Positions 24,791 through 42,878 of a DNA stretch of 64,000 bases are shown here, in pieces; the stretch's first letter is position 1, and every line of letters starts with the position of its first letter. The DNA is taken from contig NZ_JAPCKI010000006.1 of assembly GCF_028680575.1 (NCBI RefSeq), positions 62,001 to 126,000 on the forward strand. Reading direction: 5' to 3'. This DNA is from Acidovorax benzenivorans. Its GTDB lineage: Bacteria; Pseudomonadota; Gammaproteobacteria; Burkholderiales; Burkholderiaceae_C. The notes below the pieces were generated by a model. That model was not told where the DNA came from. It saw only the letters and a program-made list of their open reading frames with translations, and did not search any database. The position numbers and the translations under genes were made by a program.

Positions 24791-25276
24791 ATGCCATCTT
24801 TTGACACCGTCTGCGAAGCCAACCTGGTCGAAGTGAAAAACGCGGTCGAGAACACCGCCAAAGAAATCGCCACCCGTTTCGACTTCAAGGGCACCTCCGC
24901 CAGCATCGAGATCAAGGACAAAGACATCACGCTGATCGGCGACGCAGACTTTCAGCTCACCCAGATCGAAGACGTGCTGCGCAACAAGCTCACCAAACGC
25001 AATGTGGACGTGCGTTTTCTGGACATGGGCGATGTGCAGAAAGTGGGCGGCGACAAGGTCAAGCAGGTCATCAAGGTGCGCAACGGCATCGAGAGCGAGT
25101 TGGCCAAAAAAATCCAGAAGCTGCTCAAGGAGAGCAAGCTCAAGGTTCAAGGCGCCATCCAGGAAGACAAGGTGCGCGTGACCGGTGCCAAGCGCGACGA
25201 CCTGCAGGCCGCCATGGCCCTGATCCGCAAGGATGTGACGGACGTACCGCTGTCGTTCGACAACTTCCGCGACTGA
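24791..25276 (+). CDS. yajQ: YajQ-family cyclic-di-GMP-binding protein
   Basis: A 161-residue protein with two ferredoxin-like folds, starting [20 protein letters not shown] with the family's [19 protein letters not shown] and ending [10 protein letters not shown]. YajQ proteins bind nucleotides; the Xanthomonas homologue binds cyclic di-GMP and modulates a transcription factor. The whole length matches the family. Its stop codon is one base from the ATG of the protease gene, which lies inside a family-A repeat. Confidence 0.95.
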
Positions 25277-25277
25277 T

Positions 25278-25410
25278 ATGAAGCAACTCCCCCCTGAGGC
25301 CCTGCGGGCCTTCCCCCCGCTCTCGCAGCGCGGAGCGCTGCGGGCAGGGGGACGCCGCCAGCGCGGCGGGGCGGCCCTTGCGCAGCGGCTCTCACCGGGG
25401 CTGCGCCGGT
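25278..25410 (+). repeat. Family-A ORF-carrying repeat, copy 1
   Basis: Aligned with 41956-41830 on the minus strand. Both copies begin TGA-N-ATGAA(A/G)CA followed by CCCCCTGAG. They share GCGGGGCGGCCCTTGCGC (25366-25383 and 41857-41874) and end at GGGCTGCGCC. The reading frame from its ATG is open through the copy and continues into the protease gene. Confidence 0.8.
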
Positions 25411-26048
25411 ATCAGCGCCTCCTCGCCCTGTGCATCGGGTTGCTACTGGGCCCCACCTGGGCGCATGCGCAGGCTGTGGCGCTGGCGGGTGTACTGGGCA
25501 GCAAGGCGCTGATCGTGGTGAATGCCAGCCCGCCCAAGGCGGTGGGCGCGGGAGATGAGTTCCAGGGGGTGAAAGTCATCGCCGTCGCCAAGGACGAGGC
25601 CACCGTCGAAATCCAGGGCGCGCGGCGCACGCTGCGGCTGGGCGAGGCGCCCGTGAGCGTGGGAGGACGCAGCGGCAGCGGCAAGCGCATTCTGCTGGTG
25701 GCAGATGGCCGAGGTCACTTTGTGAACAGCGGCACCATCAACGGGCAGGTGATGCAGTACATGGTAGACACCGGGGCCTCGACTGTCGCCATCGGGCGGC
25801 CGGATGCGGAGCGCATGGGCCTCAACTACCAAAGCGGCCAGCCGGTGCGCGTGAACACCGCCAATGGCGTCGCCCAGGGCTGGCACATGAAGCTCGACTC
25901 CATCCGCATTGGCGACGTTGAGGTCTTTGGCGTGGAGGCCATCATCACCTCGCAGCCCATGCCCTATGTGCTGCTGGGCAACAGCTTCCTGAACGAGTTC
26001 CAGATGACCCGCACCAACGACCAGATGGTGCTGGAAAAGCGCCACTGA
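25278..26048 (+). CDS. Retropepsin-like aspartic protease with repeat-derived N-terminus
   Basis: A 256-residue exported protein of the clan AA / TIGR02281 single-domain aspartic protease family, with the catalytic motif MVDTGASTVAIGRPDAERMG and a C-terminal YVLLGNSFLNEFQMTR. The signal-type hydrophobic core (LLALCIGLLLGPTWAHAQ) sits at residues 48-65. The preceding ~44 residues are translated from a family-A repeat and are Arg/Pro-rich. No ATG, GTG or TTG occurs in frame between ATG 25278 and a TTG inside the hydrophobic core, so translation appears to begin within the repeat. The ATG is one base after the yajQ stop, and translational coupling is likely. Confidence 0.8.
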   Translation: MKQLPPEALRAFPPLSQRGALRAGGRRQRGGAALAQRLSPGLRRYQRLLALCIGLLLGPTWAHAQAVALAGVLGSKALIVVNASPPKAVGAGDEFQGVKVIAVAKDEATVEIQGARRTLRLGEAPVSVGGRSGSGKRILLVADGRGHFVNSGTINGQVMQYMVDTGASTVAIGRPDAERMGLNYQSGQPVRVNTANGVAQGWHMKLDSIRIGDVEVFGVEAIITSQPMPYVLLGNSFLNEFQMTRTNDQMVLEKRH

Positions 26049-40040: not shown

Positions 40041-40795
40041 GCGGTGGTCTCCAGGGTTTCGGTGCCCAGGTATACGGCCTGCACCTCAGGGTGGTTGCGG
40101 ATCTCGTCGGGTGTACCAGCGGTGAGCACGCGGCCATACACCAGCACCGAGATGCGGTCGGCCAAGCGAAACACGGCCTCCATGTCATGCTCGATGAGCA
40201 GCACCGCCATGTCCTTGCGCAGGGCCTCGATGAGATGCACCATCTGTTGCGACTCACCTGGCCCCATGCCCGCCATGGGTTCATCCAACAGCAGCAGCTT
40301 GGGGGCAGCCGCCAGCGCCAGCGCCACATCCAGCATGCGCTGCGCGCCATGCGGCAAGGCACCCGCCGTCTCAGCAAGGCTGTGCTGCAGCCCTACGCGC
40401 TCTGCCAGTTGCTCTGCCTTGACGTACAGATCACTGGCTTGTGAGCGTGGCTGCAGAAAACGGAAGCTGGAGCCACTGTGCGCTTGCACGGCCAGCAGCA
40501 GGTTGTCACGCACGGTCTGCGCAGGAAAGATGCGTGTCACCTGGAAGCAACGCGTCAGCCCGTGGGCCACACGGCGGTGCATGGGCAGCGGCGTGATGTC
40601 CACGCCGTCGAGCAGCACACGCCCCGCGTCGGGCTGCAGCAGGCCCGAAATCTGGTTGACGAGCGTGGTCTTGCCCGCGCCGTTGGGGCCAATCAGCGCG
40701 TGGATCTCTCCCCGCTCCACCGACAGGCTCACATGGTCCGTCGCGACGAGGCCGCCAAAGCGTTTGACCAGTCCTTCGACTTGAAACAGGCTCAT
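40037..40795 (-). CDS. livG: Branched-chain amino acid-type ABC transporter ATPase
   Basis: A 252-residue LivG-type ATPase starting MSLFQVEGLVKRFGGLVATD. It has Walker A ALIGPNGAGKTTLVNQISG, the family's TRCFQVTRIFPAQTV, signature LPHGAQRMLDVALALAA (LPHGAQR replaces the usual LSYGQQR) and Walker B KLLLLDEPMAGMGPGE. The start is ATG 40795, overlapping the livM stop by four bases (ATGA). It works with LivF, LivH and LivM. Confidence 0.92.
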   Translation of the reverse strand: MSLFQVEGLVKRFGGLVATDHVSLSVERGEIHALIGPNGAGKTTLVNQISGLLQPDAGRVLLDGVDITPLPMHRRVAHGLTRCFQVTRIFPAQTVRDNLLLAVQAHSGSSFRFLQPRSQASDLYVKAEQLAERVGLQHSLAETAGALPHGAQRMLDVALALAAAPKLLLLDEPMAGMGPGESQQMVHLIEALRKDMAVLLIEHDMEAVFRLADRISVLVYGRVLTAGTPDEIRNHPEVQAVYLGTETLETTA

Positions 40796-41787
40796 CGGGC
40801 ACTCCTTGCACGCAGGTCTGCCAGCGCGGCCAGGCCCTTGGGCGCATACAGCGCGGTAGCGATCAGGAGCACCCCCAACGGCATGTGCCAGTAGTCGGTG
40901 TTGAGCTTGAGTACCTCTTCGAGCGTGAGCCACACCCCAGCCCCCACCGGCCCGCCCCAGCGCCGGCCCAGGCCACCGATCACCACCATCACAATGAGCG
41001 TGGCCGATTGTGTCCAGTGCATCATCGACGGGCTCACGAAGCTGTTGCCTGTGGCCAGCAGCGCACCAGCCAGGCCGGCCACGGCACCCGCCAGCACAAA
41101 CGCGGTGAGCTGCAGCAGGTACACCGGGTAGCCCAGCGCCCGCATGCGGGTCTCGTTGTCGCGAATGCCTGCAAGCGCTGCGCCAAAACGCGAGGCCGTA
41201 GCCCGGTCAAGCCACCACAGCACCAAAGCCACGAGTGCCAGTACCACCCAATACAGCGTGGACTCATCAGCCCCGTTGAGCCCCAGGCCCAGCAGCGGCC
41301 GCATGGGCAGGGTGTAGCCGTCGTCGCCGCCATAACTGCGCAGCGACACAAAAACGAAGTACAGCATCTGCGCAAAAGCCAGCGTGATCATGATGAGGTA
41401 CACGCCCTTGGTGCGCAGCGATACAGCGCCAATCAGCAACGCCGCCAATGCCGCCAATGCCATGGCAGCAGCCCACACAGCCCAGGCCGATGTCACGCCC
41501 GCGTCCGAGAGCATGACCACCGCATAGGCCCCCACACCCACGAACCCGGCATGCCCCAGCGCCACCATGCCACCAAAGCCCATGATGAAGTTCAGGCTGG
41601 CGGCGGCCAGCGCCACCACCAGCACCCGGCGCACGAAGCCGATGTAGAAATCCAGGCCCAGGGCCGATGCCACCAGCGGGAACAGCGCTAACGCCACCAG
41701 CAGGGCCAGCGGCAGCAGGATGCCGCGCCAGCGCTGTGTGACCACGGGCGGCAATATGGCGGAAGAAGAAGTCAGGGAGGAGGACAT
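40792..41787 (-). CDS. livM: Branched-chain amino acid-type ABC transporter permease
   Basis: A 331-residue permease with about nine hydrophobic segments. The LivM hallmarks are LNFIMGFGGMVALGHAGFVG (near residue 65) and a C-terminal VVIGGLGRRWGGPVGAGVWL, where GGLG and the following Gly face the ATPase. The start is ATG 41787; ATG 41808 is an alternative that would overlap the repeat frame. The TGA of a 55-codon frame carried by a family-A repeat lies one base before the ATG, and GGAAAA in that frame could serve as the ribosome binding site. Confidence 0.9.
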   Translation of the reverse strand: MSSSLTSSSAILPPVVTQRWRGILLPLALLVALALFPLVASALGLDFYIGFVRRVLVVALAAASLNFIMGFGGMVALGHAGFVGVGAYAVVMLSDAGVTSAWAVWAAAMALAALAALLIGAVSLRTKGVYLIMITLAFAQMLYFVFVSLRSYGGDDGYTLPMRPLLGLGLNGADESTLYWVVLALVALVLWWLDRATASRFGAALAGIRDNETRMRALGYPVYLLQLTAFVLAGAVAGLAGALLATGNSFVSPSMMHWTQSATLIVMVVIGGLGRRWGGPVGAGVWLTLEEVLKLNTDYWHMPLGVLLIATALYAPKGLAALADLRARSAR

Positions 41788-41788
41788 A

Positions 41789-41956
41789 TCAGTTTTCCAC
41801 GGTGCCATGCGCCACCCACGACGCGTGAAACTGGCGCAGCCCAAGCCAGTGCCCCCGCGCAAGGGCCGCCCCGCGGCGCTGGGGGCGTCCCCCTCCCGAC
41901 TCGCGCAGCGAGACGAGAGAGGGGGAAGGCGCGAAGCGACTCAGGGGGTGTTTCAT
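41789..41956 (-). CDS. 55-codon ORF carried by family-A repeat at the livH-livM junction
   Basis: The frame starts ATGAAACACCCCCTGAG one base after the livH stop and ends TGA one base before the livM ATG. The product would be MKHPLSRFAPSPSLVSLRES and then an Arg/Gly-rich part containing RPQRRGAALA. The residues align in the same frame with the N-terminus of the aspartic protease at 25278. Whether the peptide has a function is unknown. Translation of this frame would keep ribosomes moving from livH to livM. Confidence 0.35.
   Translation of the reverse strand: MKHPLSRFAPSPSLVSLRESGGGRPQRRGAALARGHWLGLRQFHASWVAHGTVEN
41830..41956 (-). repeat. Family-A ORF-carrying repeat, copy 2
   Basis: It matches copy 1 (25278-25410) along its length, with small insertions and deletions in the middle; see the shared 18-mer at 41857-41874. 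It separates livH from livM, genes that often sit only a few bases apart. Confidence 0.8.
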
Positions 41957-41957
41957 C

Positions 41958-42878
41958 TCAGCCCTTGGCAGAAAACAGCCCCGCAGGGCGAAAAGACAGC
42001 ACTGCAGCCATCAGCGCGTACATGGCCACCTCGGCACACAGCGGCCCCAGGTCAGCAGCCACGGCGGGCGGCAAGGTAGCGCGCAGTAGCAGCGGCAGGA
42101 AGGCGCGGCCAATGGTGTCCACCAGGCCCACCAGCAGCGCGGCCACAAAGGCGCCCCGCACCGAGCCAATGCCGCCAATGACAATGACCACCAGCGCGGG
42201 AATCAAAATGGACTCACCCATGCCCACCTGCACGGCCATGATGGGCCCCATCAGCGCACCAGCCAATGCGGCCAGCGCAGCACCCAGCAGAAAGATGCCA
42301 CTGAACACACGCTTGACGCGCACGCCCATCAGCTCGGCCATCCATCGGTCAGACGCCCCAGCCCGCACCAGCATGCCCACGCGGCTGTGGTTGACCAGCA
42401 GGTACAAGAGCCCTGCCACCAACACCCCTGCGCCCAGCACCACCAGGCGGTAAGAGGGGTAAGGCAGCCCGGCAAACAGCTCCACCGGCCCCGCCAGGGC
42501 TGCGGGCGTGGGTGCCATGACGGGGGACGGGCCCCACACCATCTTCACGGCATCGTCGGCCACCAGAATCACGCCGAACGTGGCCAGCACCTGGGCCAGG
42601 TGGTCACGCCCATACAGGCGGCGCATCAGCGTCACCTCCAGCAGCACCGCCACCAGCATGGTGGCCGCTATGGCCACCAGCACGGCGCCCGCCAGCGAAC
42701 CGCTTTGCACATGCACTGTGGCCGCCACATAGGCCCCCACCATGAACAGCGAGCCATGCGACAGGTTCATCACGTCCATGATGCCGAAGACCAGCGTGAG
42801 GCCCGCAGCGATGAGGAACAGCATGAGCCCATAGCCCGCGCCGTTGAGCAACTGCTCGAAGACAAGTATCGGATTCAT
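41958..42878 (-). CDS. livH: Branched-chain amino acid-type ABC transporter permease
   Basis: A 306-residue permease with about eight hydrophobic segments. Hallmarks are GLMLFLIAAGLTLVFGIMDV and MNLSHGSLFMVGAYVAATV near the N-terminus and VVIVIGGIGSVRGAFVAALL near the C-terminus. It pairs with LivM in the membrane. The ATG is at 42878, 35 bases after the binding-protein gene. Confidence 0.93.
   Translation of the reverse strand: MNPILVFEQLLNGAGYGLMLFLIAAGLTLVFGIMDVMNLSHGSLFMVGAYVAATVHVQSGSLAGAVLVAIAATMLVAVLLEVTLMRRLYGRDHLAQVLATFGVILVADDAVKMVWGPSPVMAPTPAALAGPVELFAGLPYPSYRLVVLGAGVLVAGLLYLLVNHSRVGMLVRAGASDRWMAELMGVRVKRVFSGIFLLGAALAALAGALMGPIMAVQVGMGESILIPALVVIVIGGIGSVRGAFVAALLVGLVDTIGRAFLPLLLRATLPPAVAADLGPLCAEVAMYALMAAVLSFRPAGLFSAKG

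Follow-up and report, generated by a model that had tools for sequence, protein, structure and literature searches.

Insertions within bacterial operons are usually polar. The window analysed here, a stretch of 64,000 nucleotides from Acidovorax benzenivorans, carries on its minus strand a repeat placed between two adjacent permease genes, and an open frame spans this insert from end to end. The question raised by the locus is what such a frame does between two cistrons. The livH-like gene ends in TGA (41960-41958) and is followed by a single spacer base, G (41957), and by the ATG of the repeat frame (41956); the 55 codons of the frame end in TGA (41791-41789), and then come one spacer base, T (41788), and the livM-like ATG (41787), all on the minus strand. 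Reading of the minus strand thus confirms the one-base spacers that had been claimed for both ends of this frame in an earlier, sequence-only reading. Both permeases belong to PF02653 (branched-chain-amino-acid-type), and they score under the curated NCBIfam cut-offs for LivH/LivM and for UrtB/UrtC, so that 'livH/livM' is used here as a loose name. The features of the junction are as follows.

41958..42878, minus strand: upstream gene, livH-like ABC permease (PF02653), stop TGA at 41960-41958
41789..41957, minus strand: complete repeat copy inserted at the junction, opening with the spacer base next to the livH stop and closing with the terminal TGA, R2 score 176.4 bits
41789..41956, minus strand: bridging frame of 55 codons, with one base between the livH stop and its ATG and one base between its TGA and the livM ATG
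41827..41948, minus strand: conserved core CCCCCTGAG...GCCAGTTTC with hairpins 1-4, R1 match, limits approximate and set by eye
41926-41941, minus strand: hairpin H1, limits approximate, by eye
41889-41925, minus strand: hairpin H2, limits approximate, by eye
41851-41888, minus strand: hairpin H3, limits approximate, by eye
41830-41850, minus strand: hairpin H4, limits approximate, by eye
41793..41798, minus strand: GGAAAA, Shine-Dalgarno-like, within the conserved 3' end GGA-n-ACTGA (alignments A2 and A3 of complete copies)
40792..41787, minus strand: downstream gene, livM-like ABC permease (PF02653), ATG at 41787, start set from orthologs

The inserted feature is a complete copy of a hairpin-rich repeat of the Comamonadaceae, which measures about 175 bp when complete. 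Copies were collected with two models: R1, a covariance model built on 29 copies, and R2, a frame-blind DNA model of complete copies. Complete copies span 157-192 nt (50 R2 loci), and their consensus is stop-N-ATGAARC(G)ACAA-CCCCCTGAG-hairpins-GTTTCATGCG-hairpin-GGAnAACTGA-N-ATG, from which single copies vary; the ends of the element are defined on the left by (C)TGA followed by (R)ATGAAAC, and on the right by GGAnAACTGA followed by N. Pairing within the hairpins is well supported, as paired changes affect both sides in 11 of 29 pairs of the plain alignment A1, and cells with double changes number 142 in A3 versus 43 in shuffles, A3 being fitted to the model and hence favourable to it. In helices 2-4 of A3, 9 one-sided cells stand against 137 two-sided ones and G-U intermediates are almost absent, which suggests either that the hairpins are important as DNA structures or that they are subject to templated correction. 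The last hairpin in A3, unlike helices 2-4, shows many G-U intermediates. Some copies of the window's own genome, scoring about 36-68 bits (e.g. L081, L086 and L105), carry a second type of module (such as CACCCGGTGGCCTGGCAAAGCCAGTTCCACGGGTG) in place of hairpin 3 between the same 5' and 3' parts, and the repeat family is modular in this sense. Terminal inverted repeats were not apparent by eye, and Rfam gave no match on the repeat, either in 10 loci at E<=5 or in the window at the gathering score.

The repeat is abundant, and its position relative to genes is highly regular. The window's own genome (G000, 5.49 Mb) contains 107 R1 matches at E<1e-3, with core lengths mostly of 97-148 nt and a shortest partial match of 37; a first DNA search of this genome had given at least 41 matches, with 40 of 118 candidates scored. 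Ninety-seven of the 107 copies lie in sense and begin between -8 and +15 nt from the stop of an upstream gene that runs in the same direction, genes being called with a home-made hexamer caller retrained on these loci, on which the gene starts rest; an earlier pass over the same genome had placed 98 copies near a stop, with six stops set by hand. The same holds for three other genera, in which 56 of 57 copies are in sense and within -8 to +15 nt of the upstream stop, the other one being at 25 nt; these 57 are the first-listed copies of G118 (20), G049 (20) and G050 (17), incomplete copies included, and the counts leave out three stretches of G036 and most loci from the wider scans of the family and order and from the pattern scan. 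For comparison, in an 800-kb stretch of a related genome (G026), 5% of random intergenic positions on a random strand fall 0 to 15 nt from a sense stop, while placement after every intergenic or stop-codon TGA brings 464 of 2892 positions (16%) near a sense stop, and placement after CTGA 42 of 655 (6.4%). Placement at stop codons is thus more frequent than chance, and the copies of both sets strongly support the earlier proposal of an element that targets stop codons or survives there. The copy of the window that follows yajQ also begins one base past a stop, as had been noted (TGA 25274-25276, T 25277, ATG 25278).

Comparison of related genomes dates the insertion and reveals mobility. Among 47 genomes of the genus, 11 livH orthologs were found at >=90% amino-acid identity; the livH/livM junction contains the repeat in two of them (G000 and G008) and is empty in nine, including G026, whose LivH shows 100% identity across the matched region and whose empty junction reads TGA-G-ATG. 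The copy between livH and livM is thus a recent insertion. Two relatives, G013 and G025, have an empty livH/livM junction and instead carry a repeat match some 75 nt ahead of livH (L139 1303-1419 and L137 1304-1425). Sixteen G000 sites have both flanks in the G026 stretch, and of these 4 are shared and 12 are restricted to G000; at the latter, comparison with G026 by eye puts the upstream stop on the same codon in nine cases and no more than one codon away in three. One further genome, G326, harbours six copies that are 95-100% identical over 171 nt and have unrelated flanks; one of them (L291) is a head-to-tail dimer that repeats every 175 bp, its two 57-codon frames being linked by TGA-G-ATG. 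These near-identical copies, one in tandem, point to recent mobility. CTGA is present at both the left and right borders of all six, and elsewhere the left side is NTGA or lacks TGA. Duplication of the whole TGA-N-ATG junction as a target was considered for the liv site and set aside, since N differs between the two borders in most readable copies, while a duplication of (C)TGA alone cannot be told from the element ends.

As for its distribution, at E<=1e-6 R1 detects the repeat in 18 of the 120 family genomes searched (17 of 119 genera) and R2 in 51 of 399 genomes at E<=1e-20 (18 of 141 genera); across the order, R1 matches 7 of 300 genomes at E<=1e-4, all within the window's own family. A pattern scan returned at least 80 loci, and the matches listed include Acidovorax, Paracidovorax, Paenacidovorax, Delftia, Diaphorobacter, Comamonas, Simplicispira, Giesbergeria, Ottowia and other Comamonadaceae or Burkholderiales, together with one Nocardiopsis that is probably a chance match. 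Phages gave no match to the repeat, and two plasmid records match it partially. A RAYT was considered as mobiliser and rejected, in that the presence of a Y1 transposase does not track the element over the 120 genomes: Y1_Tnp (PF01797) occurs in 80 of them, including 16 of the 18 element-positive ones, and the element-positive G066 and G140 are not among the 80. The sole Y1 (RAYT-like) transposase found in G000 lies at L200 1132-1827 on the minus strand, and the only R1 match of that contig is about 65 kb off.

The sequence-only reading had also proposed that the element carries an ORF that preserves ribosome flow, and here the outcome depends on which copies are considered. Among co-directional copies of G000, 14 of 30 frames open through the repeat end between -4 and +5 nt from the next start, versus 3 of 53 for other frames; the TTG start behind one of the 14 (C1:52704) is doubtful, and the livM start was miscalled and is counted as a miss. 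A first pass with hand-set starts had given 16 of 24 versus 1 of 45 for other frames, and of 126 ordinary G026 spacers 100-220 nt long, 9 are bridged. Over the 57 copies of the three other genera there was no excess of exact bridging (8/28 versus 11/48 in other frames), and because of this negative result the claim was moved to complete copies and to the contrast between co-directional and convergent genes described below. When complete copies are picked by their right end alone (18 of 164), 12 of the 16 with a left ATG or GTG bridge exactly. A further set comprised 46 complete copies from 26 genomes, found with R2, with four copies used earlier left out and with six near-identical G326 copies and some ortholog pairs included; 28 of these have a terminal stop-N-NTG, all 28 have a left ATG or GTG, and 22 bridge exactly (19 of 25 when the near-identical G326 copies count once). 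The bridging frames have 52-58 codons, mostly 55-57, and among 50 complete copies the distance between the upstream stop and the start of the frame is +1 nt in 18 copies, -4 in 16, 0 in 6 and -1 in 4.

The distance from start to terminal stop keeps the register in 33 of 44 complete copies; with the commonest length excluded (171 nt, to which all G326 copies belong), 17 of 28 do so (p=0.0027 versus one third). This register is partly inherited from in-frame master copies. The bridging frame is open in 30 of 33 copies and the two other frames in 25 and 26; as these are nearly as open, openness alone is not special and proves little. The sister copy at the same junction in G008 (L132) has 58 codons and a stop 17 nt ahead of the livM ATG, so that on its right side the exact spacing of one base has not been kept. 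The proposed ORF therefore appears to stand in form, as stop-N-ATG...TGA-N-ATG in register in most complete copies with a terminal stop-N-NTG, and it does not hold as exact bridging in the sister copy or over the 57 copies.

If the frame serves the next cistron, its retention is expected mainly where a cistron follows. The DISCRIMINATING test compared through-frames before co-directional and before convergent genes in 154 copies with a sense upstream stop, from G000 and the three other genera; the contrast was devised post hoc and subsequently stratified by score, stop type and spacer offset, and some of the copies are orthologs. A through-frame is present in 76 of 124 copies before a co-directional gene (75 if frames running off the end of the locus are excluded) versus 3 of 30 before a convergent one (p=2.7e-7). 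The association is found in G000 (42/77 versus 1/20) and in the three other genera alone (34/47 versus 2/10, p=0.003). By stop type, the counts are 67/95 versus 2/17 after TGA and 9/29 versus 1/13 after TAA or TAG (p=0.13). Convergent copies of G000 score lower (median 58 versus 84 bits), and within this genome the counts are 17/36 versus 0/14 below 80 bits and 25/41 versus 1/6 at 80 bits or more (p=0.08). By spacer offset, they are 71/104 versus 3/16 at 2 or more (p=0.0002) and 5/20 versus 0/14 at -8 to 1 (p=0.06). With an offset of at least 3 and a TGA stop, start codons are equally frequent (77/79 versus 7/7) and openness differs (61/79 versus 2/7, p=0.013); given the equal start codons, the difference in this stratum lies in openness. 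Among co-directional copies, the distance to the next gene had no significant effect (64/100 at <=90 nt versus 12/24 beyond, p=0.25). The contrast is as expected if bridging is selected, and it is the second respect in which the proposed preservation of ribosome flow seems to be borne out.

The amino acids of the frame show no sign of constraint. Codon-position periodicity was absent in 17 copies of the commonest frame, in which the synonymous share of codon differences is 0.237, against 0.216 and 0.241 in shifted frames, and two frames are in use, by 18 and 12 of 30 phaseable copies. At one locus of the window the frame runs on into a downstream gene, with the following features.

24791..25276, plus strand: yajQ, stop TGA at 25274-25276, name taken from the earlier reading
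25278..25413, plus strand: second repeat copy of the window, core 25290-25413, ATG one base past the yajQ stop
25278..26048, plus strand: fusion of 256 codons, the repeat frame continuing into an aspartic protease of clan AA that is intact (PF13975, TIGR02281)

The ATG of this copy is the only in-frame ATG or GTG ahead of a signal-peptide-like stretch, and the repeat frame has become the leader of this intact gene. If the protease is expressed, the repeat frame is translated there. Such cases are rare, as a repeat frame that starts with ATG or GTG and runs at least 240 nt past the repeat occurs in 4 of 164 copies (107 of G000 and 57 others). At C22:486824 (L092 950-1711, minus strand) the frame enters a GspJ-like pseudopilin, with TIGR01711 under its cut-off and the prepilin motif above; this locus was rejected as a clear second leader fusion, since a TTG that lies at the repeat's last two bases could plausibly serve as the native start and would then yield an ordinary six-residue prepilin leader. 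The remaining two of the four long frames have alternative ATG starts.

Taken as a whole, the evidence inclines us, by a modest degree, to the view that this is a mobile, apparently non-autonomous repeat of the Comamonadaceae whose open frame hands ribosomes on to the next gene and so avoids polarity. The repeat would land in the gap between two genes, after the stop of the first and before the start of the second, re-creating stop-N-start at both borders; its movement might proceed by single-stranded DNA hairpin transposition aimed at (C)TGA. Ribosomes finishing the upstream gene would start again at the ATG of the repeat, translate across the hairpins and then initiate anew at the next gene, aided by the Shine-Dalgarno-like GGA end. 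Polarity and loss of coupling would thereby be avoided, and insertions in operons tolerated or even kept, the peptide itself not being the product. Judged from the architecture, the complete form of the repeat is built as a bridge between cistrons, and ribosome bridging is the best-supported reading. The wider proposal, that the repeat represents a new operon-adapted class of mobile element that inserts at the stop signals of translation, with a disposable frame that solely passes ribosomes on and makes an insertion of about 175 bp silent, is put forward more tentatively and falls somewhat short of even confidence.

The strongest competitor, unlikely on balance, is a selfish element with codon-like ends by chance, its frame having no role and its position resulting from the choice of (C)TGA as target together with the purging of harmful insertions. 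The left end would then merely happen to be ATGAAAC and the right end ACTGA, the masters would be open, and G+C-rich hairpins rarely hold stops. Such an element would account for CTGA at both borders of every G326 copy, for the comparable openness of the other frames, for the unconstrained amino acids, and for the lack of excess bridging over the 57 copies and of a significant distance effect. It does not readily account for the register kept among length variants, or for the co-directional versus convergent contrast, which is also seen at similar spacer offset; moreover, (C)TGA targeting alone predicts just 6-16% of copies at stop codons.

An improbable alternative is a REP-like 3' element, whose stable structure within 15 nt of the stop would stall ribosomes at termination, hold up exonucleases or determine polarity in the operon; bridging would then be secondary. 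The position agrees with it, in that E. coli REPs within 15 nt of stop codons reportedly stall ribosomes (an observation attributed to Liang 2015), and the hairpins are conserved. On the other hand, the single-strand fold of the livH/livM copy is not stabler than shuffles (z -0.76), the near-skipping of G-U in helices 2-4 points to DNA hairpins, and start codons at both borders are left unexplained. Integron attC sites and intrinsic terminators are likewise hairpins just past stop codons, and the resemblance in siting is the point in their favour; either identity is very improbable, attC being disfavoured in that none of 50 copies carries both core motifs (GTTRRRY and RYYYAAC) on the sense strand and a terminator by the lack of a T run after hairpin 4 (A3, by eye), and a co-directional gene comes next in 124 of 154 copies. 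The least probable explanation, a small-protein gene family dispersed between genes, is favoured by the occurrence, across many genera, of similar peptides some 55-58 residues long, but it is rejected on codon statistics, with neither periodicity nor synonymous excess, two frames used, and no Pfam or NCBIfam match of the liv copy at E<=0.001.

The bridging repeat shares features with several known systems. Non-autonomous elements of the IS200/IS605 type have subterminal hairpins and a fixed short motif at the insertion point, and the present repeat also has hairpins near both ends, shows no terminal inverted repeats by eye and may have a fixed short motif at insertion; it differs in that it was found without a linked Y1 transposase, lies at stops in the sense orientation only and has a bridging frame. 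Rickettsia palindromic elements lie inside genes, add residues and are compatible with translation; both are palindromic repeats tolerated by translation at the insertion site, but the Rickettsia elements are intragenic, whereas this repeat lies between genes, the yajQ fusion excepted. REPs are short hairpins. REPs and BIMEs resemble the repeat in their many short palindromic copies, extragenic and often just 3' of genes. In E. coli, REPs within 15 nt of a stop numbered 446 of 4,072 in one survey and 260 of 496 in an earlier one, according to PMC12306157, and at this distance are said to stall ribosomes (Liang 2015, cited in PMC12306157 and PMC5082802). Relative to these figures, more than 90% of the copies described here are within 15 nt of a stop, and start/stop borders, an SD-like end and a bridging frame are not described for REPs in the available text of these sources.

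The nearest published element found is the Beta-proteobacterial repeat element (BRE), likened here by description and not by sequence letters. BRE is a dispersed G+C-rich intergenic repeat of Bordetella and of the Comamonadaceae Polaromonas, Delftia and Acidovorax, which sometimes touches gene ends and is sometimes in tandem, with a size of 75-91 bp in Bordetella and with no function proposed in the accessible part of the account (Hot et al. 2011, PMC3110155). The present repeat is likewise found in Comamonadaceae and in tandem (L291), as compared with the description available in that source; its complete form is, by contrast, about 175 bp, and neither a frame nor a stop-codon rule is described for BRE in the accessible text (PMC3110155). 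In the open-access literature, no account of sense placement at stop codons or of a bridging frame was found for such a repeat, and earlier publication is possible. The element is a BRE/REP-like repeat with a new property.

If ribosome bridging is true, a passage frame by which an insertion silences its own effect would be a new solution to operon polarity, and it would help to explain why repeats build up exactly at stop codons. Reading-frame content without protein function would become a selectable trait. The repeat also supplies genes with ready-made start codons and leaders, as at yajQ, and the role of intergenic repeats inside operons, a long-standing question, would become directly testable.
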